In this document: positions 30,909 to 44,164 of the stretch, in pieces
Position numbering within the stretch: position 1 is the first letter of the stretch
Layout of the letters: each line of letters opens with the position of its first letter
Assembly (NCBI RefSeq): GCF_011008935.1
Contig: NZ_JAAIVJ010000005.1
Location: forward strand, 62,001-126,000
DNA length: 64,000 nt
DNA from: Tabrizicola oligotrophica
GTDB lineage: Bacteria; Pseudomonadota; Alphaproteobacteria; Rhodobacterales; Rhodobacteraceae
Direction: 5' to 3'
The notes under the pieces: model-generated
Told to the model about the DNA's origin: nothing
What the model saw: the letters and a program-made list of their open reading frames with translations, nothing else
Databases searched by the model: none
Translations under genes and position numbers: made by a program

Positions 30909-32583
30909 GCTTTCGGCCGAGGCTGTGTGGAAACTGCTCTCCGTGATAGACTTCGGCAGGTCAGGCGGAGGCGGGCATGTCGGGTTTCATCGAGGGCGTT
31001 GATCGCGGCCAGTCGGTGCTTTTTCCTGATCGGCTGGACGACTGGATCGGCGAAGATAGCGTGGTCCGCGTTGTTGATTTCTTCGTCGAAGAGCTCGATC
31101 TGCAGCGTCTTGGCTTCTCCCGTTCGGCCCCCGCGAGGACTGGACGGCCCGGCTATCATCCTGCGGTGATGCTCAAGCTGTTCATCTACGGTTACCTGAA
31201 CCGCATCCCGTCGAGCCGCAGGCTGGAGCGCGAGGCGGGGCGCAATGTCGAGCTCATGTGGCTGACCGGCAAGCTGGTGCCGGATCACAAGACCATCGCG
31301 GATTTCCGGCGCGATAATGGCGTTGGTATCCGCAAGGTCTGCGCGCAGTTCGTCGAGCTTTGCCGCCGGATCGGCGCGCTGAAGGGCGATTGCGTCGCCA
31401 TCGACGGAAGCAAGTTCAAGGCGGTGAACAACCGAGACAGGAACTTCACCAAGGGCAAGATCGCCAGCCGCATTGCCCATCTCGAAGCCGATGTCGAACG
31501 CTACATCACCGAGATGGTTCGCATCGACCGGCAGGAGGAAGGTGCGGCGCGGGCGGAGAAAGTGGAACATCTGTCCCGCCGCTATGGCGGCATCCGGCAG
31601 GAGATCGCGCGGCTCAAGGAGATGGACAAGGCTTTGGCCGACGCGCCGGACGGCCAGATTTCCCTGACGGACCCCGACGCCCGCGCGATGGCGACCAGCG
31701 CGCGGAACAGCGGCTTGGTCGGCTACAATGTGCAGAGCGCCGTCGATACCGAGACGCATCTCATCGTCGCGCATGAGGTCACCAATCAGGGCTTCGACCG
31801 CGAACAGCTCAGCCCGATGGCCATCGCGGCCAAGACCGCCCTTGGACGGGACGACCTGCATGCCATCGCCGACAAGGGTTATTTCAGCGGGCCAGAGATC
31901 CTGGCCTGCCATGAGGCAGGGATCACGACGACAGTGCCGCGGCCCGCGACCTCGGGTAATGCGGCCAAGGGCATGTATGTGAAGGCGGACTTCGTCTATG
32001 ACGCCGAACGGGACGTCTATGTCTGCCCAGCAGGCGAAGACCTGACCTACCGCTACACGACCGAGGAACGCAGCATCCCGATACGGCGATATTGGATCAA
32101 CGGATGCAAGACCTGCCCCCTTCGGACCCACTGCACGACCGGCAACGAGCGGCGGATTTCACGCTGGGAGCGCGAGGATCTGGTCGATGACATGGATGGC
32201 CGCCTTGGGCGGGACCCGGACTACATGACCCTCCGCCGCTGCACCGTCGAGCACCCGTTCGGCACGATCAAGGCGTGGATGGGCGGCACCCATTTCCTGA
32301 CGCGCAGGCTGAAGAACGTCCGCAGCGAGATGGCGCTGAACGTTCTGGCTTACAACATCAAACGAATGGTCGCCCTGCTCGGCGTCAGGGGGCTGATGCG
32401 GGCCATGCAGGGCTGATCACGGACGGGGATAGCCGTCGGGCCGAACCGTAGCCGTCAGAGATCACCCAGAGGCATGGTCGTAAGCACTTTTTACACCCCG
32501 ATGCGGGTTGCCGTCTGAATTGTCATGTTCCACTCGCTTACCCCCCATCGTCAGCGCGTTTCCACACAGCCTCGGCCCAAAGC
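30909..32583 (+). mobile_element. Complete IS1182-family insertion sequence
   Basis: The element is about 1,675 bases long, bounded by 26-base inverted repeats (30909-30934 and 32558-32583) that differ at one position and share the core GGCCGAGGCTGTGTGGAAAC. It carries one intact transposase gene. I see no obvious target duplication. The 3' non-coding part (32417-32557) holds no other gene. The element lies between ptsP and an orphan hypothetical protein. Confidence 0.88.
30977..32416 (+). CDS. IS1182-family transposase
   Basis: This 479-residue DDE transposase has the IS1182/IS5-like layout: an N-terminal DUF772 domain (PGYHPAVMLKLFIYGYLNRIPSSRRLE), a catalytic domain with AIDGSKFKAVN (first Asp) and IADKGYFSG (second Asp), and a C-terminal DDE_Tnp_1_6-type region with CPLRTHCTTG and RRCTVEHPFGTIKAWMG (catalytic Glu). 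The frame is intact at normal length, so the element may still be active. Confidence 0.93.
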   Translation: MSGFIEGVDRGQSVLFPDRLDDWIGEDSVVRVVDFFVEELDLQRLGFSRSAPARTGRPGYHPAVMLKLFIYGYLNRIPSSRRLEREAGRNVELMWLTGKLVPDHKTIADFRRDNGVGIRKVCAQFVELCRRIGALKGDCVAIDGSKFKAVNNRDRNFTKGKIASRIAHLEADVERYITEMVRIDRQEEGAARAEKVEHLSRRYGGIRQEIARLKEMDKALADAPDGQISLTDPDARAMATSARNSGLVGYNVQSAVDTETHLIVAHEVTNQGFDREQLSPMAIAAKTALGRDDLHAIADKGYFSGPEILACHEAGITTTVPRPATSGNAAKGMYVKADFVYDAERDVYVCPAGEDLTYRYTTEERSIPIRRYWINGCKTCPLRTHCTTGNERRISRWEREDLVDDMDGRLGRDPDYMTLRRCTVEHPFGTIKAWMGGTHFLTRRLKNVRSEMALNVLAYNIKRMVALLGVRGLMRAMQG

Positions 32584-33517: not shown

Positions 33518-33670
33518 CCCGATTTCCTTTTGATGTGCAATTTCTAGTACCTGCACATCTCTGTCATTCGTTCAAGGCGCGGCAAACGACCGCCTTTCGC
33601 CCCTTGCGGCCAGTCGGATACTTGATGCCCCCCCCGTCGACCTTTCCCCGCCACAGGCGTATCCCTCCCC

Positions 33671-33723
33671 CGTGACGCTTTGAGACCGGATTGTGGGCCA
33701 CGTTAAACAAACCGCTAAAAGGG
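33671..33723 (+). promoter_or_regulatory. SAM-II riboswitch, left (orphan) copy
   Basis: It has the same pseudoknot plan as the copy at 42865: CGTGAC (33671-33676) pairs with GCCACG (33697-33702), GTGG pairs with CCGC (33712-33715), and the conserved CGTTAAACAA and CTAAAAGGG strands are present. One P1 pair is now an A-C mismatch. It no longer controls a full metZ gene; only a truncated reading frame follows. Confidence 0.8.
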
Positions 33724-33784
33724 ACACGGACGGATGCGCCCCGGACCCCTTGGTTTCGGGGTTTTTCTTTGGCCGGAGGTGGCC

Positions 33785-33892
33785 ATGACGAATGACTGGA
33801 AAACGCGCACCAAGCTGGTGCATGACGGCATCCGCCGCAGCCAGTCTGGCGAGATGGCCGAAGCAATCTTCCTGACGCAGGGCTTCGCCTAT
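33785..33892 (+). pseudogene. metZ: metZ 5' fragment (36 codons)
   Basis: The reading frame from ATG 33785 gives MTNDWKTRTKLVHDGIRR and SQSGEMAEAIFLTQGFAY, matching the start of the intact MetZ at 42983 with two amino-acid changes. It then runs antisense through torT until a stop at 34138. Of eleven codon differences from the intact copy, nine are synonymous. It encodes no enzyme. Translation would give a 118-residue hybrid peptide. Confidence 0.88.
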
Positions 33893-34950
33893 CAGTATCC
33901 AACCTTGAACACCGGCACGAATGAAGCGGGCGCGAGCGACTCAGCCGTGCCGATGCTGTCGATGTTCTCGGGTGTCAGTGTGACAATCCTCGGCCCGGCA
34001 TGGCGGATCGTGAGTTTGCCCTCGATGGCGCGGACGGCGAATTCAACCGCCAGACGGCCTTGCAGCACGGCGAAATCGGTTGGGGCTGCCAGGATGCGCC
34101 CGCGTTTGATGCCGCGATACACGCCGTGGCTGACATAGGTCGACACGATCCCGATCCTGCCGCCAAGCCTGCGGGCGCGCAGCACCGAAACGGCGGCTTC
34201 TGCCATCGGCCCGCTGCCCACCAGGTAGTCAATGTCGGGCACCCGATCCAGCACGTCTTCGACCAGAAGCACCTGTTGCTCCAGCCCGGTGTCGCCAAAA
34301 CGGGTGGCGACAATTTCGGCCGAACTTTCGGCAAGGGCTTCCATAAATCCGCGATCGACGAACTGCACCCAACCGGCGCCCTTGGGGCCGGGGAACCAGG
34401 CCAGCCTGACCGGTGCGCTGCCTTTGGGATGCCGCCTGGCAATTTCGCGCCCGGCCGCAGCGCCCATTTCGCGCCAAGAGACACTGGATTTCGCCGTTAC
34501 GCCCGCATCGTCCATGTCGTTCACAGCCGCGATGACCGGCATCTGTCTGGCAATCCTGACCACGCTTGGGGTCAGCCCCTCGTAGGACACCGGGCCAAGG
34601 ATCAGGGCGTCCATCTTGCGCTTGCCACAGGTTTCAACCTGTTCGATCTGGCGCTTCAGATTCGGGTAGCCCCCGGCTTCGTAAAGGTCAAAAGTTACGC
34701 CCAGCCGCCGCGCTTCTTCCACCATGCCGTAGTTGACGCTAAGCCAGTACGCATCTTTCAGATGTGGATAGATCACGCAAAGGCGCCAGGGTTTCGCAGC
34801 ACGATCAAGAGCTTGGTAAGTCTGGGCTTCAGTCGGGCTGTCATCGTCGAAGGCAACGGACGGCACTTGCAGATCCCAGGTTTCCGCCGTGGCCACTGCG
34901 CCAGGCAGCGTCACCAGCCCGGCCAGAAAGAGCGATTGCAGAAACTTCAT
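33892..34950 (-). CDS. torT: TorT: periplasmic TMAO-sensing protein
   Basis: This 352-residue periplasmic binding-type protein has a signal peptide (about residues 1-22). The segment WRLCVIYPHLKDAYWLSVNYGMVEEARR followed by LYEAGGY matches E. coli TorT closely, and STYVSHGVYRGIKRGRILAAPTD is also conserved. TorT binds trimethylamine N-oxide and contacts the periplasmic domain of TorS. It is divergent from torS with 58 bases between the starts. Its stop codon sits exactly at the edge of the metZ repeat. Binding of TMAO rather than a related osmolyte is inferred from family. Confidence 0.9.
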   Translation of the reverse strand: MKFLQSLFLAGLVTLPGAVATAETWDLQVPSVAFDDDSPTEAQTYQALDRAAKPWRLCVIYPHLKDAYWLSVNYGMVEEARRLGVTFDLYEAGGYPNLKRQIEQVETCGKRKMDALILGPVSYEGLTPSVVRIARQMPVIAAVNDMDDAGVTAKSSVSWREMGAAAGREIARRHPKGSAPVRLAWFPGPKGAGWVQFVDRGFMEALAESSAEIVATRFGDTGLEQQVLLVEDVLDRVPDIDYLVGSGPMAEAAVSVLRARRLGGRIGIVSTYVSHGVYRGIKRGRILAAPTDFAVLQGRLAVEFAVRAIEGKLTIRHAGPRIVTLTPENIDSIGTAESLAPASFVPVFKVGY

Positions 34951-35008: not shown

Positions 35009-37891
35009 ATGCCTCGCAAGTCCAGCCTGTCGCGTGCAAGCCTTGGGCGCATGTTGCTGATGGCCTTTCTGGTCATCGCCGGACTGCCAGCTGTTTCCGG
35101 TGTCCTTGGCTGGTTCGAGTTGCAGGAAGTCGCGCGCAACCAGGCAACGGTCGTCACCGAGGCCATCCCGGCAATCTCGGAGGTGCGCGGCTTTACCGAG
35201 GAAAGCAGCCGCATCATTGCGGTGGCCCCGGAACTGGCTGCTGTCACCACCGAAGCCGCGCGGCGCGAGCGGGCGGCCTATCTCTTTGCCCAGGTTGACG
35301 CCCTGACAGGGCGGGTCGCGCGCTATGCCGTCACGGGAAATCCGGCCCTTGGCAGCCTGGCGCGGGCAGAGGCCGAGGTGCGCGGCAGCATCGAGCAGCT
35401 GGACCGGCTGGTGCAGAACCGCATCACCGCGACCGATGCACAAGCGGCCCGTCTACGGGCGGGTTTGCTGGCCACGACCGAGCTTCTGGAGATTGCCGAC
35501 ACGCTGGTAGCCAATGCCCAGATGGGCACAGCGGCGGCCATTTCCAACCTCTATGATCTTGAAGCCAGCGGCCTGGACACGGAAACTCGCCTGAACACCC
35601 TGGACAAGCTGATTGAGGTGGATCTTTTCCGTCAGGGGCTGATGTCGGAAATGCGCTCGCACATCGGGGAGGTTGGCCTGTTGCTCAACCGGATCGTGAC
35701 CGCGCAAAACCATGCCGAGCTTGGACAGTTGCAGGCGGCTCTGGAGGGGCGCATCGAGATTGTCACCCGGCGCATTCTGTCGGTAAACGATCCGACCCGG
35801 GCCGAACGCGCGCTTTCGCTGTTGCAGGCGATCCGACCCAGTTCGGCCCCCCCGCCCAATGCCGAGGATCTGTTCAACCTGACCAAAGGCATCCTTGATC
35901 TGGACAGCCTGATTGCAGAGGCACAAGGCGAAGTCAGTGCTGCGGCGGCGGGGCTTGACACGCAGGCACAGGCCTTGGCCGATGTCATCATCGCGCGCGC
36001 CGTCAAGGCAGGCGACGAGGCGACAGGAGCGATCCGCGCGACCCAGAGGCTATACGCTTGGGGGTCGGTCGCCGCCTTGCTGATCTCGCTCGCCGTAGTC
36101 TGGTTCTACGTGCGCGGGAATATCACCCGGCGGCTGGGGGTGCTGTCGGGCACCATGGCGCGGCTTGCGCATGGCGAGCCGGTTGACCGAATTGTGCCGC
36201 AAGGGATCGACGAGATTGCCGACATGGAAGCGGCAGTCGAGGTTTTTCGCCTACAGGGCATCGAAAACCGTGCCCTTGCCGCCGAGCGTGACCAGAACCT
36301 TGCCGAATTGCAGCGCCACCGACGGGAGTTGCAGTTGCTGGTCGCCGAACAGACCAAGCAATTGCGCGGCGAGGTCAGCGCTCACGCCGAGGCCCGAAAG
36401 AGAGCCGAGGCCGCCGACCGCGCCAAGTCGGAGTTTCTGGCGATGATGAGCCACGAAATCCGCACCCCGATGAACGGCGTCCTTGGCCTGTTGCGCTCTT
36501 TGGGCCGGGATGGGCTGTCTGCGCGCCAGCAGCGGCAGCTGCAGGCCGCCCATGCTTCGGGCGAGGGGCTGATGACCATTCTGAACGACATTCTGGATTA
36601 TTCAAAGGTCGAAGCCGGGGCAGACCTGCAGCGAGAGGTCACCTTTTCCCCGGGCGATCTGTTGCATGATATTGCCGTGCTGATGGCGCCAAGCGCGCAG
36701 GAAAAGGGAGTGGTGATGCATCTGGACGTGGCTGACGACATCCCGGACGCCGTCAGAGGCGATATGGGCAAGCTGCGGCAGATCCTGTTCAATCTTGTGT
36801 CCAATGCCGTCAAGTTCACCGACCAGGGCGAAATCCGGCTGACGGTTGCTGCTGATGGGCCGAAGGACCGGCCTCGTTTGACCTTTACCATCAGCGACAC
36901 GGGCAAAGGCATTGCCGAGGGCGCGCAGGACCGGGTGTTCGGCGCCTTCGAGCAGGAAGACAGCCAGACCGCGCGGCAATACGGCGGCACCGGGCTGGGC
37001 CTTGCGATCTGCAAGCGCTTTGCCGATGCGATGGGTGCAAAGCTGGCCGTGCAAAGCAGGGCCGGAGCGGGAAGCACCTTCACGCTGGAGGCAGAGTTTG
37101 CGCGCGGCGATCTGGCCGACCTGGCGGCCGTTCCGCTTGTGTCTGCCGTTCAACCTGCGGCGCAAAAACTGCGCGCGTTGGTGGTCGAGGACAATGACAT
37201 CAACCAGATGGTCATCCAGACCTATCTGGAAGACATGGGCCACGCGGCTACGGTCGTGGCCTCGGCCGAAGCGGCCATGCCCGTCCTGAAGGACGGCCGC
37301 TTTGATGTGATATTGATGGACGTCAACCTGCCCGGCCTTTCGGGAACCGCCGCCACGCGCCAGATCAGGGCGCACCCGAGTTCCCGCATCGCCACGCTGC
37401 CGATCATCGGCATCTCGGCCCATGTGCAAGAGGCCGACATCAAGGACAACCTTTCCGCCGGAATGTCGGCCGTGCTGGCCAAACCCCTGTCGCCCGAAGC
37501 CCTGCACGCCGCCCTGCGCGCGCATGTTCCCCAAAAACACGCCTTGAAGGCGCTTGCCGAGGATATCGGGGAGGAGCGCGCTGCAGGATTGGCGCGGGTT
37601 TTCCTGAAGGGCCTGCCCAAAAGCCTTGCCGCCATTGACGCCGCGGCCCGGTCAAAGGACCCTCTCGCTCTGTCGCGCGCCGCCCACCAATTGAAAGGCG
37701 CTGCCGAGAATTTCGAGTTGCAGACCCTGACCACTCGTCTTGCCCGTATCGAGACGCTGACCAGACAAGGCTCGTCCACCGAACTTGCGGCCAGCCTTTC
37801 GGAACTCCCGGATGCGCTGGACCTGGCCGCGCGGGACATCAACGCCGCACTGGAGTTGCTGACCCGCCGCCCTACTCAAGCTGCGCCGTGA
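35009..37891 (+). CDS. torS: TorS: hybrid sensor histidine kinase
   Basis: This 960-residue inner-membrane kinase has two membrane segments (about residues 15-35 and 355-375) enclosing a long helical periplasmic sensor. HAMP, HisKA (MMSHEIRTPMNG, H482), HATPase (DTGKGIAEG, GGTGLGLAICK), receiver (LMDVNLPG, D771) and HPt (AAHQLKGAAENF, H893) domains follow in order. This matches TorS in layout and length. It relays phosphate from H482 through D771 and H893 to TorR. I chose ATG 35009; the frame is open up to 34889 but overlaps torT. Its 3' end overlaps torR tail to tail by 20 bases. Confidence 0.92.
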   Translation: MPRKSSLSRASLGRMLLMAFLVIAGLPAVSGVLGWFELQEVARNQATVVTEAIPAISEVRGFTEESSRIIAVAPELAAVTTEAARRERAAYLFAQVDALTGRVARYAVTGNPALGSLARAEAEVRGSIEQLDRLVQNRITATDAQAARLRAGLLATTELLEIADTLVANAQMGTAAAISNLYDLEASGLDTETRLNTLDKLIEVDLFRQGLMSEMRSHIGEVGLLLNRIVTAQNHAELGQLQAALEGRIEIVTRRILSVNDPTRAERALSLLQAIRPSSAPPPNAEDLFNLTKGILDLDSLIAEAQGEVSAAAAGLDTQAQALADVIIARAVKAGDEATGAIRATQRLYAWGSVAALLISLAVVWFYVRGNITRRLGVLSGTMARLAHGEPVDRIVPQGIDEIADMEAAVEVFRLQGIENRALAAERDQNLAELQRHRRELQLLVAEQTKQLRGEVSAHAEARKRAEAADRAKSEFLAMMSHEIRTPMNGVLGLLRSLGRDGLSARQQRQLQAAHASGEGLMTILNDILDYSKVEAGADLQREVTFSPGDLLHDIAVLMAPSAQEKGVVMHLDVADDIPDAVRGDMGKLRQILFNLVSNAVKFTDQGEIRLTVAADGPKDRPRLTFTISDTGKGIAEGAQDRVFGAFEQEDSQTARQYGGTGLGLAICKRFADAMGAKLAVQSRAGAGSTFTLEAEFARGDLADLAAVPLVSAVQPAAQKLRALVVEDNDINQMVIQTYLEDMGHAATVVASAEAAMPVLKDGRFDVILMDVNLPGLSGTAATRQIRAHPSSRIATLPIIGISAHVQEADIKDNLSAGMSAVLAKPLSPEALHAALRAHVPQKHALKALAEDIGEERAAGLARVFLKGLPKSLAAIDAAARSKDPLALSRAAHQLKGAAENFELQTLTTRLARIETLTRQGSSTELAASLSELPDALDLAARDINAALELLTRRPTQAAP

Positions 37892-38576
37892 AGACATAGC
37901 CCTCGCCATGCGAGGTCGTGAAGATGCGTGGTGCCTTGGGGTCGTCACCCAGCTTTGAGCGCAACCGCTGCACCAGCACGTCGATCGTGCGGGTGTTGGT
38001 GCCGTCCTGACGGTGGGTAATTGCCGCGATCAGGCGGTCGCGGTCCATCACGGTGCCGGGGTTCAGCACGAAGACCCGCAACAGCTCATATTCCGCCCGA
38101 GTGAGGGAAATCGGCTCACCGGCGGGATTGGACACTTGCCGCGAGCCGACATCAAAGGTGAAGCCGTTGAAATGCAGGACCCGTCGCGTCAGGGCGCGCA
38201 TCGCGGAGGTCCGGCGCAACAGGTTCTTGACCCGCGCCAGCAATTCGCGCCGATTGAACGGTTTGCAGACATAGTCATCCGCCCCGAGTTCGAGCCCCAC
38301 AATGCGGTCAACGTCGTCGGTGCGGCCCGTCAACAGGATGATGCCGATCTCCGAGCGCGCCCGCTGTTCGCGGGTGATTTCCAGCCCGTCCTTGCCCTCC
38401 AGATTGATGTCGGCAATCAGAAGATCTGCGTTGCCCTGCGACAGGATCTTCTCGGCCTTTTCCGCGCTGTCGCATTCCGAAACCCTGTAGCCAAAGGATT
38501 CAAGGTAGCTGGCCAGCGCGCTGCGCGTCACCGGTTCGTCCTCGACGATCACGATATGCGCAGGTCTTGGTGACAT
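37872..38576 (-). CDS. torR: TorR: OmpR-family response regulator
   Basis: This 234-residue regulator opens with MSPRPAHIVIVEDEPVT, nearly the E. coli TorR start. It has receiver residues D12, D13 and D56 (LLIADINLEG) and K105 region YVCKPF, and a C-terminal winged helix with PISLTRAEYELLRVF and TTSHGEGYVF. The frame upstream to 38663 lacks homology, so ATG 38576 is used. It is divergent from tmoX across 176 bases and convergent with torS. The obvious target is the tmoX promoter. Confidence 0.92.
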   Translation of the reverse strand: MSPRPAHIVIVEDEPVTRSALASYLESFGYRVSECDSAEKAEKILSQGNADLLIADINLEGKDGLEITREQRARSEIGIILLTGRTDDVDRIVGLELGADDYVCKPFNRRELLARVKNLLRRTSAMRALTRRVLHFNGFTFDVGSRQVSNPAGEPISLTRAEYELLRVFVLNPGTVMDRDRLIAAITHRQDGTNTRTIDVLVQRLRSKLGDDPKAPRIFTTSHGEGYVFTAQLE

Positions 38577-38592: not shown

Positions 38593-38665
38593 CTGTTTCC
38601 TCTTGTTAACAATTTTTTACAATTAATGCCAGTCCGTTCATCGCCGAGGTCTGACGCATTCATAA
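38593..38665 (+). promoter_or_regulatory. Candidate TorR-box cluster upstream of tmoX
   Basis: CCGTTCATCG (38634-38643) and GCATTCATAA (38656-38665) resemble the enterobacterial TorR decamer CTGTTCATAT and are exactly 22 bases apart, two helix turns. CTGTTTCCTC at 38593 is a weaker third copy, 41 bases further up. They lie between torR and tmoX, 88-160 bases ahead of the tmoX ATG. The AT-rich stretch 38603-38626 beside them may include the torR promoter. Confidence 0.5.
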
Positions 38666-39697
<1,032 letters not shown>

Positions 39698-39773: not shown

Positions 39774-40787
39774 GTGACCGAAACCGCCATCTCCTGCCGC
39801 GACGTCAGCAAGATCTTTGGGCCGGACCCTGCAGGGCACCTGGCACGGCTGAAGGCAGATCCGAATACCTCGTCCGTGGGCTATGTGCAGGCGGTGCGGG
39901 ATGTCAATCTTGATATCCGGCGCGGCGAGATGCTGGTGGTGATGGGCCTGTCCGGCTCGGGCAAGTCGACGCTGGTGCGTTGCCTGTCGCGCCTGATCGA
40001 GATCACGGGGGGCAGCGTGTCGATTGAAGGGCAGGACATCGCCAGCCTGTCCGAAACCGAACTGATCGACCTGCGCCGTCGCAAGATGGGGATGGTGTTT
40101 CAGAGCTTTGGCCTTTTGCCGCATCGCACCGTTCTGGACAACGTGGCCTTTCCGCTGGAAATGCGCGGCCAGGACCGCCGCGCCCGCTATGCCCGGGCGC
40201 GCGAGGTGCTGGATCTGGTGGGGCTGGAGGGCCGCGAGGCCTATTTCCCGCGCGAGCTTTCGGGCGGTCAGCAGCAGCGCGTCGGTATCGCCCGCTCTCT
40301 GGCGATTGAACCTGACATCTGGTTTCTGGACGAGCCCTTCTCGGCGCTTGACCCCCTGATCCGCCGCGAGATGCAGGATGAATTTCTGCGGCTGAAGGGG
40401 CTGTTGAACAAGACCATCATCTTCATCACCCATGATTTCGATGAGGCCCTGCGCCTGGCCGACCGGATTGCCATCATGAAGGATGGCCGGATCGAACAAT
40501 GCGACACGCCCGACCAGATCGTGTTGCATCCGGCGACCGATTATGTGGCCAAGTTTACCGCCGAGATTGACCGCGCGCGCGTGGTGCGCGCGGGTGCGCT
40601 GGTGCACTCTCTGATACCCGCGCCCGAGGGTGAGGCCTTTGCCTCGAACCGAACCATTCGCGATCTGGCGCGCTGCCTTGTGGCCGAGCGCCGCGAGGTG
40701 ATCCCGGTGGCCGACGCGGATGGCAAGGTCATTGGCGGGATGAACCGTCAAGAGGCGCTGGACGTGTTGCTTGGAGACGAGAAATGA
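39774..40787 (+). CDS. tmoW: TmoW-like ABC transporter ATP-binding protein
   Basis: This 337-residue ABC ATPase is of the ProV/OpuAA type. It has Walker A GLSGSGKST, signature LSGGQQQRVG, Walker B IWFLDEPFSALD, and a C-terminal CBS-like tail (residues about 280-337). GTG 39774 is chosen (MTETAISCRDV, with GGGG upstream). An in-frame GTG at 39741 is possible. It lies between the binding protein and the permease and overlaps the permease start by four bases. Confidence 0.87.
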   Translation: MTETAISCRDVSKIFGPDPAGHLARLKADPNTSSVGYVQAVRDVNLDIRRGEMLVVMGLSGSGKSTLVRCLSRLIEITGGSVSIEGQDIASLSETELIDLRRRKMGMVFQSFGLLPHRTVLDNVAFPLEMRGQDRRARYARAREVLDLVGLEGREAYFPRELSGGQQQRVGIARSLAIEPDIWFLDEPFSALDPLIRREMQDEFLRLKGLLNKTIIFITHDFDEALRLADRIAIMKDGRIEQCDTPDQIVLHPATDYVAKFTAEIDRARVVRAGALVHSLIPAPEGEAFASNRTIRDLARCLVAERREVIPVADADGKVIGGMNRQEALDVLLGDEK

Positions 40788-42718
40788 CGGCCCGCGCGGC
40801 CCGTGGCATAGGTCTGGCCGGGCTCCTGCTCGCCATTGCGCTGGGTCTTGCCCTTGGCAAGCCCGTCCTGCCTTTAGGTCTGATCCGCCCGCCCGAATGG
40901 CTTGTGCAACCCTTTGCCGACTGGATCAACGCCGCCTTCTATTTCCTGCAGAACGATCTCGGGCTCATGGCCCTGACCCGCGCGTTTTCCGGCGTGGTCG
41001 AGTGGCTTCTGGATGTCACCGCGAACCTGCTTTACGGCAAAAGCCGCTGGCCGAACATCGGCCCGATCCCATGGGTGGTGATCGCAGCCACGGCGTTCAT
41101 GGCGGGCTATGCGCTGAAGGGCTGGCGGCTGGCAGCCCTGTCGGGTGGCACCTTTGTCTGGATTGCGCTGATGGGGCAATGGAAATGGGCAATGGAGACG
41201 CTATCCGTGATCGTGGTGGCGACCCCTTTCTCGGTGTTTCTGGGGCTGGCCTTGGGCGTTTTGGCCTGGCGCTCGCCCCGGTTTGAACGGATCTTGAACC
41301 CCATTCTGAACGTCGCGCAATCGCTGCCGCATTTTGCCTATATGGTCCCGGTCGTGGTTTTCATCGGAGTTGGTCCCAAGGCCGGGGCCATCGTGACCAT
41401 CATCTTCTCGGTCCCGCCGATGATCCGGATGACCCTGCTGGGCCTGAAAAAGGTGCCCGAGGAGGTGATCGAGGCGGGCAAAATGGCCGGCACGACGCGC
41501 TGGCAGCTCTTGTCCCGGGTGCGGATTCCCACTGCGCGCGCCGAGATCCTGATCGGGGTCAATCAGGTCATCATGCAATGTCTGGCAATGGTGGTGCTGG
41601 CCAGCTTCATCGGCATGCCGGGGCTGGGGCAAAAACTGCTGCAACTGTTGCAGGCGCTGAAGATCGGGTTGTCGGTGGAAATCGGCGTGACCATCGTTCT
41701 TCTGGCCATCACACTGGACAGGTTGTCCAAGGCATGGGCTTTCCGCCTGCCTGAACATGGCGAGCCAAGTGCCATGTGGCTGCGGCGCAATCGCCTTCTG
41801 GTCATCTGGATCGGGCTTTGCGCCGTCGGTTTCATGCTGGCCCGGTTTGCGCCCTACTTCCACGAAGTTGAGCGCAATCAGGCGCTTTCCGTCGCAGGCC
41901 CGATCGATGCCGCGATGGATCAGCTCATCCGCCTGATCGCTCCGCTGACCGCATGGCTGCGCTGGTTCCTGATCACATGGGTGCTGATCCCGATGCGTGA
42001 TGCCTATCTGTGGCTGCCGTTCACCGCCGTTCTCACCCTGCTGGCCGCGCTTGGCTGGGCCGTCGGGGGGCTGCGCTCGGCCCTGATATGCGTCAGCTAT
42101 TTCGCGCTCATTGCCCTGTCCGGCTGGTGGGACCGCGCGATGGTCACGGTCTACATGGTCAGCATTTCAGTTCTGATTGCCGCCGCGATCGGCCTGCCGC
42201 TTGGCATCTGGGCCGCGCGCAGCCCGGCCCGCGCTGAACGAACCCTGCTGATCTGCGACACCGCCCAGACCTTCCCCAGCTTCATCTACCTGATCCCTGT
42301 CATCATGCTCTTTGGGGTGAATGACGTCGCCGTTGTGGCCGCCGTGGTGGTTTTCGCCGCCGTTCCCATCGTGCGCTATACCATAGAGGGCCTGTGCAAC
42401 GTGCCATCCGAACTGGTCGAAGCCGCCGAGATGAGCGGCGCCACCCGGCGGCAAACCCTTTGGAATGTGCGCCTGCCAATGGCGCTGCCGACCATGCTGG
42501 TTGGCGCGAACCAGTCGGTGATGTTTTCGCTGTTCATGGTAATCATCGCCGCATTCATCGGCACGCAGGACCTGGGTCAGGAGATGCAGCGCGCCCTGTC
42601 CTCGACCGACGTTGGCAAGGGGATGGTTCTGGGTTTTGCCATCGCCTTCATGGGTTTGATGACCGACCACCTTATTACGCGTTGGTCCGAAGGCAGAAAA
42701 CGGGCCTTGGGGGTGTAG
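40784..42718 (+). CDS. tmoV: TmoV-like fused ABC permease
   Basis: This 644-residue inner-membrane protein holds two tandem ProW-type permease domains in one chain. Each has its own coupling loop: EVIEAGKMAGTTRWQLLSRVRIP near residue 225 and ELVEAAEMSGATRRQTLWNVRLP near residue 545. Fused permeases of this length are typical of TmoV, whereas classical ProW has one domain. The ATGA overlap with the ATPase gene indicates coupled translation. It completes the importer. Confidence 0.88.
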   Translation: MTARAARGIGLAGLLLAIALGLALGKPVLPLGLIRPPEWLVQPFADWINAAFYFLQNDLGLMALTRAFSGVVEWLLDVTANLLYGKSRWPNIGPIPWVVIAATAFMAGYALKGWRLAALSGGTFVWIALMGQWKWAMETLSVIVVATPFSVFLGLALGVLAWRSPRFERILNPILNVAQSLPHFAYMVPVVVFIGVGPKAGAIVTIIFSVPPMIRMTLLGLKKVPEEVIEAGKMAGTTRWQLLSRVRIPTARAEILIGVNQVIMQCLAMVVLASFIGMPGLGQKLLQLLQALKIGLSVEIGVTIVLLAITLDRLSKAWAFRLPEHGEPSAMWLRRNRLLVIWIGLCAVGFMLARFAPYFHEVERNQALSVAGPIDAAMDQLIRLIAPLTAWLRWFLITWVLIPMRDAYLWLPFTAVLTLLAALGWAVGGLRSALICVSYFALIALSGWWDRAMVTVYMVSISVLIAAAIGLPLGIWAARSPARAERTLLICDTAQTFPSFIYLIPVIMLFGVNDVAVVAAVVVFAAVPIVRYTIEGLCNVPSELVEAAEMSGATRRQTLWNVRLPMALPTMLVGANQSVMFSLFMVIIAAFIGTQDLGQEMQRALSSTDVGKGMVLGFAIAFMGLMTDHLITRWSEGRKRALGV

Positions 42719-42864
42719 ACGGGGAACTCGGGGCAGTCGATCAAGGCGTTCAATCAGCCCGCAGCGAGCGACCGCTTCCCGCCCCTTGCGGCCAGTCGCA
42801 AACCCGTTGACACCCTCTCCACCCCCCCGGTTGACCTTTCCCCGCCACAGGCGTATCCCTTCCC

Positions 42865-42917
42865 CGTGGCGCTTTGAAACCGGATTGCGGGCCACGTTAA
42901 ACAAACCGCTAAAAGGG
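42865..42917 (+). promoter_or_regulatory. SAM-II riboswitch upstream of metZ
   Basis: This is an H-type pseudoknot with P1 CGTGGC (42865-42870) / GCCACG (42891-42896) and a second helix GCGG (42887-42890) / CCGC (42906-42909). The conserved CGTTAAACAA linker and CTAAAAGGG tail match alphaproteobacterial SAM-II aptamers. S-adenosylmethionine binding would lower metZ expression. It ends 65 bases before the metZ ATG. Confidence 0.9.
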
Positions 42918-42933
42918 AAACGGATGCGCGCAG

Positions 42934-42961
42934 CCCCGGACCCCTTGGTTTCGGGGTTTTT
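42934..42961 (+). terminator. Hairpin with U-tract in the metZ leader
   Basis: CCCCG (42934-42938) can pair with CGGGG (42952-42956), or ACCCC with GGGGT, followed by TTTTT. It lies between the SAM-II aptamer and metZ, so it may be the expression platform (conditional terminator). The stem is short, so this is tentative. Confidence 0.5.
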
Positions 42962-42982
42962 CTTTGGCCAAGGGGGCCTGCG

Positions 42983-44164
42983 ATGACGAACGAGTGGAAG
43001 ACGCGCACGAAACTGGTGCATGACGGCATCCGCCGCAGCCAATATGGCGAGATGGCCGAGGCGATCTTCCTGACGCAGGGCTTTGCCTACCCGTCGGCCG
43101 AGGCGGCCGAGCAGCGTTTCATCAAGGCCGGGGAGGATGAGTTCATCTATGCCCGCTACGGCAACCCGACCGTGCGGATGTTCGAGGACCGCATCGCCGC
43201 GCTGGAAGGCACCGAGGCCGCCTTCGCCTGCGCCTCGGGCATGGCGGCGGTGAATGGTGCGCTCACGTCAATGCTGAAGGCCGGGGATCATGTGGTCTCC
43301 AGCCGGGCGCTGTTCGGGTCGTGCCTTTACATCCTCGAAGACGTGCTGACCCGCTTTGGCGTCAAGGTCAGCTTCGTCGACGGGGCCGACCTTGACCAAT
43401 GGCGCAAAGCCATCACGCCGGACACCAAGGCGGTGTTCTTCGAATCCATGTCGAACCCGACGCTGGAGCTGGTGGACATCCGCAGCGTCTCCGACATCGC
43501 CCATGCAGTCGGGGCCATGGTGATCGTCGACAACGTCTTTGCCACGCCGATCTTTTCCCGTGCCGTCGATCAGGGCGCCGATGTGGTGGTCTATTCCACG
43601 ACGAAGCACATCGACGGTCAGGGCCGGGCGCTGGGTGGGGTGATTTGCGGGCGAGAGGAGTTCATCCGCAAGACGGTGGAAACCTACATGAAGCATACCG
43701 GCGGCTCCATGAGCCCGTTCACCGCCTGGATGCACCTGAACGGCATGGCGACGCTGGACCTGCGCTGCCGGGCGATGGCCGACAGCGCGCTGACGGTGGC
43801 CCGCGCGCTGGAAGGCGATGCGCGGCTGTCGCGCGTGGTCTTTCCGGGGCTGGAAAGCCACCCCCAGCACAGGCTCGCCATGGACCAGATGGGGTCGGGC
43901 GGCACGCTGATTGCCTTTGACATCAAGGGCGGCAAAGACGCGGCCTTCCGCTTCATGAACGCTTTGCAGATCGCCACGATCTCCAACAACCTGGGTGACG
44001 CGAAAACCATCGCCACCCATCCGGCGACCACGACCCACCAGCGCCTTGCGCCGGAGATGAAGGACAAGCTTGGCATCACGCCGGGCCTGATCCGGCTGTC
44101 GGTGGGGCTGGAGGACGCGGGCGACCTGATCGCCGACCTGAAACAGGCGCTCGACAAGGTGTGA
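42983..44164 (+). CDS. metZ: O-succinylhomoserine sulfhydrylase
   Basis: This 393-residue PLP enzyme of the Cys/Met metabolism family makes homocysteine from O-succinylhomoserine and sulfide. It has YARYGNPTVRMFE near residue 53, the CASGMAA loop near residue 77, and the PLP lysine in YSTTKHIDGQG near residue 210. The frame is full length and intact. A SAM-II riboswitch precedes it, as is usual for methionine genes in this class. Its first 36 codons and leader are duplicated at 33568-33892. Confidence 0.93.
   Translation: MTNEWKTRTKLVHDGIRRSQYGEMAEAIFLTQGFAYPSAEAAEQRFIKAGEDEFIYARYGNPTVRMFEDRIAALEGTEAAFACASGMAAVNGALTSMLKAGDHVVSSRALFGSCLYILEDVLTRFGVKVSFVDGADLDQWRKAITPDTKAVFFESMSNPTLELVDIRSVSDIAHAVGAMVIVDNVFATPIFSRAVDQGADVVVYSTTKHIDGQGRALGGVICGREEFIRKTVETYMKHTGGSMSPFTAWMHLNGMATLDLRCRAMADSALTVARALEGDARLSRVVFPGLESHPQHRLAMDQMGSGGTLIAFDIKGGKDAAFRFMNALQIATISNNLGDAKTIATHPATTTHQRLAPEMKDKLGITPGLIRLSVGLEDAGDLIADLKQALDKV

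Follow-up and report, generated by a model that had tools for sequence, protein, structure and literature searches.

The gap between the divergent genes torR and tmoX bears four direct decamers set at the spacing of the Escherichia coli torC promoter, and from its sequence we judge it to be a real, conserved promoter of the torC type that would act on a different kind of target, i.e., TMAO import and not TMAO reductase. TorTSR is a textbook system for anaerobic respiration of TMAO, the fish-odour precursor. In the present case, the TorT-TorS-TorR phosphorelay very probably senses periplasmic TMAO and activates the importer tmoXVW through this promoter. The genes concerned lie as follows in the window, by which we mean the whole stretch of DNA analyzed (64,000 nucleotides):

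33892 to 34950, minus strand: torT, periplasmic TMAO-binding partner of TorS (TIGR02955 and NF008185; match to TorT of PDB 3o1h)
35009 to 37891, plus strand: torS, hybrid sensor kinase (TIGR02956, 619 bits); the start codon is tentative, the open reading frame opening at 34889
37872 to 38576, minus strand: torR, OmpR-type response regulator (NF008034 TorR, 272 bits; PF00072 and PF00486)
38753 to 39697, plus strand: tmoX, TMAO-binding protein of an ABC importer (PDB 4xz6, a solved TMAO-binding protein, E 1.3e-159)
39774 to 40787, plus strand: tmo ATPase gene (TIGR01186, 332.8 bits, cut-off 326.6)
40784 to 42718, plus strand: tmo permease gene with two permease halves (TIGR03416, 364.9 bits, cut-off 363, in two stretches)

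TorT exceeded the TIGR02955 equivalog cut-off (324.3 vs 310 bits) and scored 389 vs 200 with NF008185. TorS fell below its equivalog cut-off (619 vs 676.5 bits); its TorS_sensor_domain, HisKA, HATPase_c, Response_reg, and Hpt domains were all above theirs, and the sensor and relay are complete. TorR remained slightly under the NF008034 equivalog cut-off (272 vs 275 bits), the next family, ArcA, being about 50 bits lower (222). The DNA-binding domain of TorR aligns closely with that of E. coli TorR through the RT[IV]DVL[IV]xRLRxK helix; since related regulators share much of this helix, the alignment lends weak support to recognition of TorR sites. As for the importer, TmoX retains all seven pocket residues (W37, W84, F88, E113, W159, F202, and W204), the TMAO pocket of R. 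pomeroyi TmoX being described as W55, W102, F106, E131, W177, F220, and W222 (PMC8918994).

A search with TIGR00509 found no full-length TorA-like reductase in this genome (best match 99.8 bits, cut-off 1017.55), and among 13 torR-tmoX genomes searched with the same model, four had a match of 886 to 953 bits and none exceeded the cut-off. Because the TorR promoter precedes an importer in a genome in which no full-length TorA-like reductase was found, TMAO sensing would serve the supply of carbon and nitrogen. The genome also encodes a 791-residue protein with DUF1989, GCV_T, and GCV_T_C domains, an architecture that we take to be that of TMAO demethylase. A DUF1989 match in an open frame of at least 795 residues was present in 12 of the 13 torR-tmoX genomes (all but G113), the other domains being confirmed in the window's copy only. 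Within 400 bases before the demethylase-like gene, no array scored above 19 of 40 in 10 loci (of 12; L191 and L203 were left out).

A direct repeat stands on either side of the tor-tmo block (33567-33896 and 42749-43094; identity 82-89% in the main parts and 73% in a third). It comprises a SAM_alpha (SAM-II) riboswitch together with ~112 bases from the 5' end of metZ, and its left copy is a metZ fragment. In a genome of the same genus (G003), the gene to the left of the block, a putative ptsP, has the metZ leader within ~180 bases after it, which looks like an empty site. A transposase gene (DUF772/DDE_Tnp_1, 30977-32416) lies to the left of the block in a stretch absent from G003, and the 284-residue open reading frame adjoining it gave no Pfam match at E 1e-5.

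The torR-tmoX gap is 176 bases long, lies between the start codon of torR (38576, minus strand) and the tmoX ATG at 38753, and contains the following elements:

38603 to 38612, plus strand: tor box 1, TTGTTAACAA, 26 bases before the start codon of torR (register, and conservation across 44 relatives)
38613 to 38622, plus strand: tor box 2, TTTTTTACAA, in tandem with box 1 at a 10-base step (register and conservation in 44 relatives)
38634 to 38643, plus strand: tor box 3, CCGTTCATCG, the first decamer of a preliminary description of this DNA (register and conservation in relatives)
38656 to 38665, plus strand: tor box 4, GCATTCATAA, the second decamer of that description (register and conservation in relatives)
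38651 to 38656, plus strand: -35-like CTGACG, putative promoter element 17 bases before the -10-like element (CTGAC columns of 1.3-1.85 bits in the alphaproteobacterial set)
38674 to 38679, plus strand: TAGGCT, putative -10-like element for tmoX (columns of T, A, and the last T 1.74-2.0 bits; same register in E. coli)

The two decamers 22 bases apart that had been reported earlier are indeed present, at 38634 and 38656, and constitute boxes 3 and 4 in an array of four, with start-to-start steps of 10/21/22. The earlier notion of phased sites of the torC kind is borne out as regards this torC spacing; its third box was wrong, and the tandem boxes 1 and 2 at 38603 and 38613 had been overlooked. 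That supposed third box, a weaker decamer 41 bases upstream (CTGTTTCCTC at 38593), matches the consensus at 5 of 10 positions, and each of its ten columns carries less than 0.6 bit in the 44 relatives plus the window; it is therefore not a tor box and was rejected as such. On the torR strand CTGTTTCC reads GGAAACAG and possibly belongs to the torR leader. We also rejected an N-terminal extension of torR through the boxes (the frame is open to 38663), since box 1 lies at a variable distance (13 to 76) from the beginning of the torR match in the relatives. Box 3 agrees with the E. coli consensus CTGTTCATAT at 7 of 10 positions and box 4 at 6 of 10, the latter departing also from the relatives' column consensus TGTTCACA.

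The -10-like TAnnnT begins 18 bases past the start of box 4, and TAAGAT stands at the same offset in E. coli torC. CTGAC-N17-TAnnnT resembles a -35/-10 pair, so that box 4 would sit in the promoter spacer, as a box does in PhoB promoters. A sigma-70 scan found no promoter, and an ungapped repeat search of the gap returned nothing. CCAG directly 5' of box 3 (array offset 26-29) is strongly conserved in 44 torR-tmoX gaps, its A being invariant and found in the E. coli torC gap too; it is perhaps a part of the torR promoter or of an extended box.

Arrays were scored solely with the published E. coli tor box consensus CTGTTCATAT (PMC9239176) at the E. coli torC spacings, the maximum being 40. Single decamers are uninformative, as 184 sites with up to three mismatches occur in the 64-kb window and 173.5 are expected; box 4, with four mismatches, lies outside these 184. 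As a unit, the four-box array exceeds what chance would give: its score of 24 was reached by none of 200 shuffles of the gap (shuffle maximum 21) and by no other of the 127,876 window positions (runner-up 22). The spacing is left undecided by the window alone, in which (10,21,22) shares the score of 24 with four other triples, and it is settled because the relatives favour it. When 1575 spacing triples were compared on 44 torR-tmoX promoters with the E. coli consensus, (10,21,22) gave the highest mean (26.27, against a mean of 19.31 and a standard deviation of 0.95), and the next seven triples all retain the final 22. Column information amounts to 1.35 bits in the boxes, 0.87 in the spacers, 0.50 downstream, and 0.24 upstream, the spacer value being elevated by the CCAG that precedes box 3 and the CTGAC that precedes box 4.

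The relatives came from two TorR searches. One, of 394 genomes of the family, yielded 16 at E ≤ 1e-65, the window's genome included; among the 15 others, tmoX is divergent from torR in 12, and three carry torA or torC instead. The other, of genome contigs, yielded 571 loci, for the best 80 of which the gene order was mapped; among these 80, tmoX is divergent from torR in all 36 with a TorR identity of at least 54% (L069-L104). Removal of identical copies (L072, L086, L098, and L099, i.e., copies of L057, L061, L064, and L065) reduced 48 torR-tmoX promoters to 44 distinct ones, which are related and hence not 44 independent cases. The record of L098 is titled Enemella evansiae (Actinomycetota); the title looks wrong, since the torR-tmoX gap of L098 has exactly the sequence found in a genome of the Rhodobacteraceae family (G005). 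Either torS or torT is missing at a contig end in L059, L077, and L097, and neither was found within 8 kb beyond torR in L102.

The preliminary description had proposed to look for the motif ahead of other tmoX genes with a torR neighbour. The torC-spaced array proved to be present in all 44 distinct promoters collected, three of them marginal against shuffles: none of 200 shuffles reached the array score in the window and 41 relatives, and five, two, and one did so in L057, L082, and L104, respectively. Within the relatives' loci (6.4-16.7 kb, both strands), the array ranked first in 43 of 44, one other position scoring equally or higher in L057.

For a control based on the importer, we searched the 394 genomes for TmoX (106 had a match) and took 30 loci from the best matches. 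All 12 with an adjacent torR bear the array (scores 21-31), and all 18 without torR lack it over 600 bases (scores 17-20, i.e., chance level); the genomes of the latter all fall outside the 16 torR-positive ones. The absence of the array upstream of these 18 tmoX genes speaks for TorR control of tmoX, as originally suggested. Seven of the 18 torR-less promoters (L161, L165, L170, L171, L174, L177, and L178) fit a ACTTGATTGATAGGAAAA-like pattern, often after CAAGAAAAA; this may be a promoter or a site for a different regulator. In a pattern search of the 3.85-Mb genome, the array and the box 1-2 pattern were each found once and the reversed box 1-2 control not at all; across the 16 torR-positive genomes, 15 gave one match each (13 tmoX-linked and two torA-linked), the torC-linked G078 gave none, and the reversed pattern gave none in any. 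Because the pattern was derived from the alignments, this search is not independent of them.

These findings led us to propose the following mechanism. TorT would bind periplasmic TMAO and switch TorS, which would hand phosphate via its own His-Asp-His relay to TorR. Phosphorylated TorR would occupy boxes 1 and 2 first and the weaker boxes 3 and 4 afterwards; according to PMC9239176, no shift was obtained with box 3 by itself, and binding to it likely hinges on box 4. Situated shortly before the -10, box 4 would then recruit RNA polymerase, and the cell would thus make tmoXVW in the presence of external TMAO. Through boxes 1 and 2, which stand 26 bases away from its start, torR is probably also kept in check by its own product, as has been reported for E. 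coli; unphosphorylated TorR is stated to bind high-affinity sites as well and to block polymerase (PMC5294996, citing Ansaldi 2000, the title of which, as given in the reference list, concerns torR autoregulation).

CTGAC before the weak box 4 (6/10) could alternatively mean a TorR-independent promoter or TorR acting as a repressor. The corresponding reading, that the array mainly controls torR itself or represses tmoX and that another regulator induces tmoXVW, seems unlikely to us. It draws on the overlap of box 4 with the spacer of the -35/-10-like pair and on R. pomeroyi, in which all three methylated amines upregulate tmoXWV alongside the pathway run by the AraC-type TmaR, and in which the promoters named as bound by TmaR are those of tmm, tdm, dmm, gmaS-mgs, and mgd, the tmoX promoter not being among those named there (PMC13390433). 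However, autoregulation of torR alone needs no boxes 3 and 4 in fixed register to the tmoX -10, and the absence of the array from the 18 torR-less tmoX promoters also counts against this reading.

CtrA recognizes TTAA-N7-TTAA, and TTAA-like half-sites are common in Alphaproteobacteria, which favours reading the GTTAACA...TTAACA part as a CtrA site and the remainder as incidental, as does the fact that one of nine matches to the OmpR-type DNA-binding domain in the genome may be CtrA. We nevertheless hold this to be highly improbable and rejected the CtrA site on half-site spacing: relatives with two TTAA have a gap of 6 where 7 is required, and the window has TTTAC as its second half. Moreover, the boxes are spaced alike in E. 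coli, boxes 3 and 4 would stay unexplained, and the array is absent at torR-less tmoX promoters. Chance decamers combined with kinship of the promoters, without any function, deserve hardly any credence, for although single decamers are no commoner than expected and the window alone does not favour the spacing, the uniqueness of the array, the spacing test, the conserved columns, and the match to enterobacterial torC all argue otherwise.

A TorR tree built from 63 rows requires two changes for the tmoX-linked group, against a shuffled mean of 16.0, and tmoX linkage is thus strongly clustered; the branching of alpha- and gammaproteobacteria is not firm in this tree. The torC layout and spacing ahead of a TMAO uptake system suggest that one and the same sensor of external TMAO has been redeployed from respiration to the uptake of nutrients. 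We lean towards the view that TorTSR with its four-box promoter is an old, portable TMAO switch of alpha- and gammaproteobacteria that moves between genomes as one block and is coupled either to respiration of TMAO or to its scavenging, the latter in many Rhodobacteraceae and in a few further alphaproteobacteria (one is named Rhodospirillaceae); it would sense TMAO outside the cell, in contrast to the response of the R. pomeroyi methylamine pathway to an internal catabolite. The torC-type array is a ready and specific test case for how a response-regulator array is preserved over large distances as its target changes, and TorR is a candidate regulator of tmoXVW in bacteria active in methylated-amine cycling.

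The closest known counterpart is the torC promoter of E. coli and Salmonella, which likewise has four direct decamers at 10/21/22, the same -10 distance, a divergent torR, and torS and torT nearby; spacing and -10 register agree with those of torC in E. coli and of six further enterobacterial torC promoters. The gap in E. coli K-12 reads CTGTTCATAT CTGTTCATAT CCGTTCATCC CTGTTCATAT, then TAAGAT; box 3 is CCGTTCATCC in Salmonella as well, and the distance between box 1 and the torR start is 18 bases in E. coli. In contrast, the downstream operon encodes a TMAO importer here and a cytochrome plus reductase there, boxes 1 and 2 are of the GTTAACA/TTTACA type here and GTTCATA there, and a CTGAC -35-like block precedes box 4 here. 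Among six alphaproteobacterial torR-torA gaps, two keep the four boxes, L066 (score 22, reached by 1/200 shuffles) and L068 (24, 0/200); they resemble the window in spacing and in their TorS and TorT neighbours, whereas their target is a TorA-like reductase with 36-38% identity to E. coli TorA. The other four are without the spacing (L108, 17, 126/200; L109, 21, 5/200; L112, 21, 7/200; L115, 18, 33/200). They retain a TTTACA-type tandem near torR and have no boxes 3 and 4 at torC spacing, so their TorR arrays may be reduced. An alphaproteobacterial torR-torC gap (L067) scored 22 (0/200), its first box being one base off register. With tmoXWV of Ruegeria pomeroyi DSS-3, our locus shares the transporter family and identical TmoX pocket residues, whereas the methylamine enzyme genes of that organism are described as being under AraC-type TmaR and GntR-type TmoR (PMC13390433). 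The main text of that paper on methylamine control contains neither "Tor" nor "two-component", and in the open-licence literature we found no paper linking TorR to tmoX, an absence that is no proof. Beside the TmaR/TmoR control of R. pomeroyi, the torR-linked tmoX loci would represent a second, different regulatory solution.
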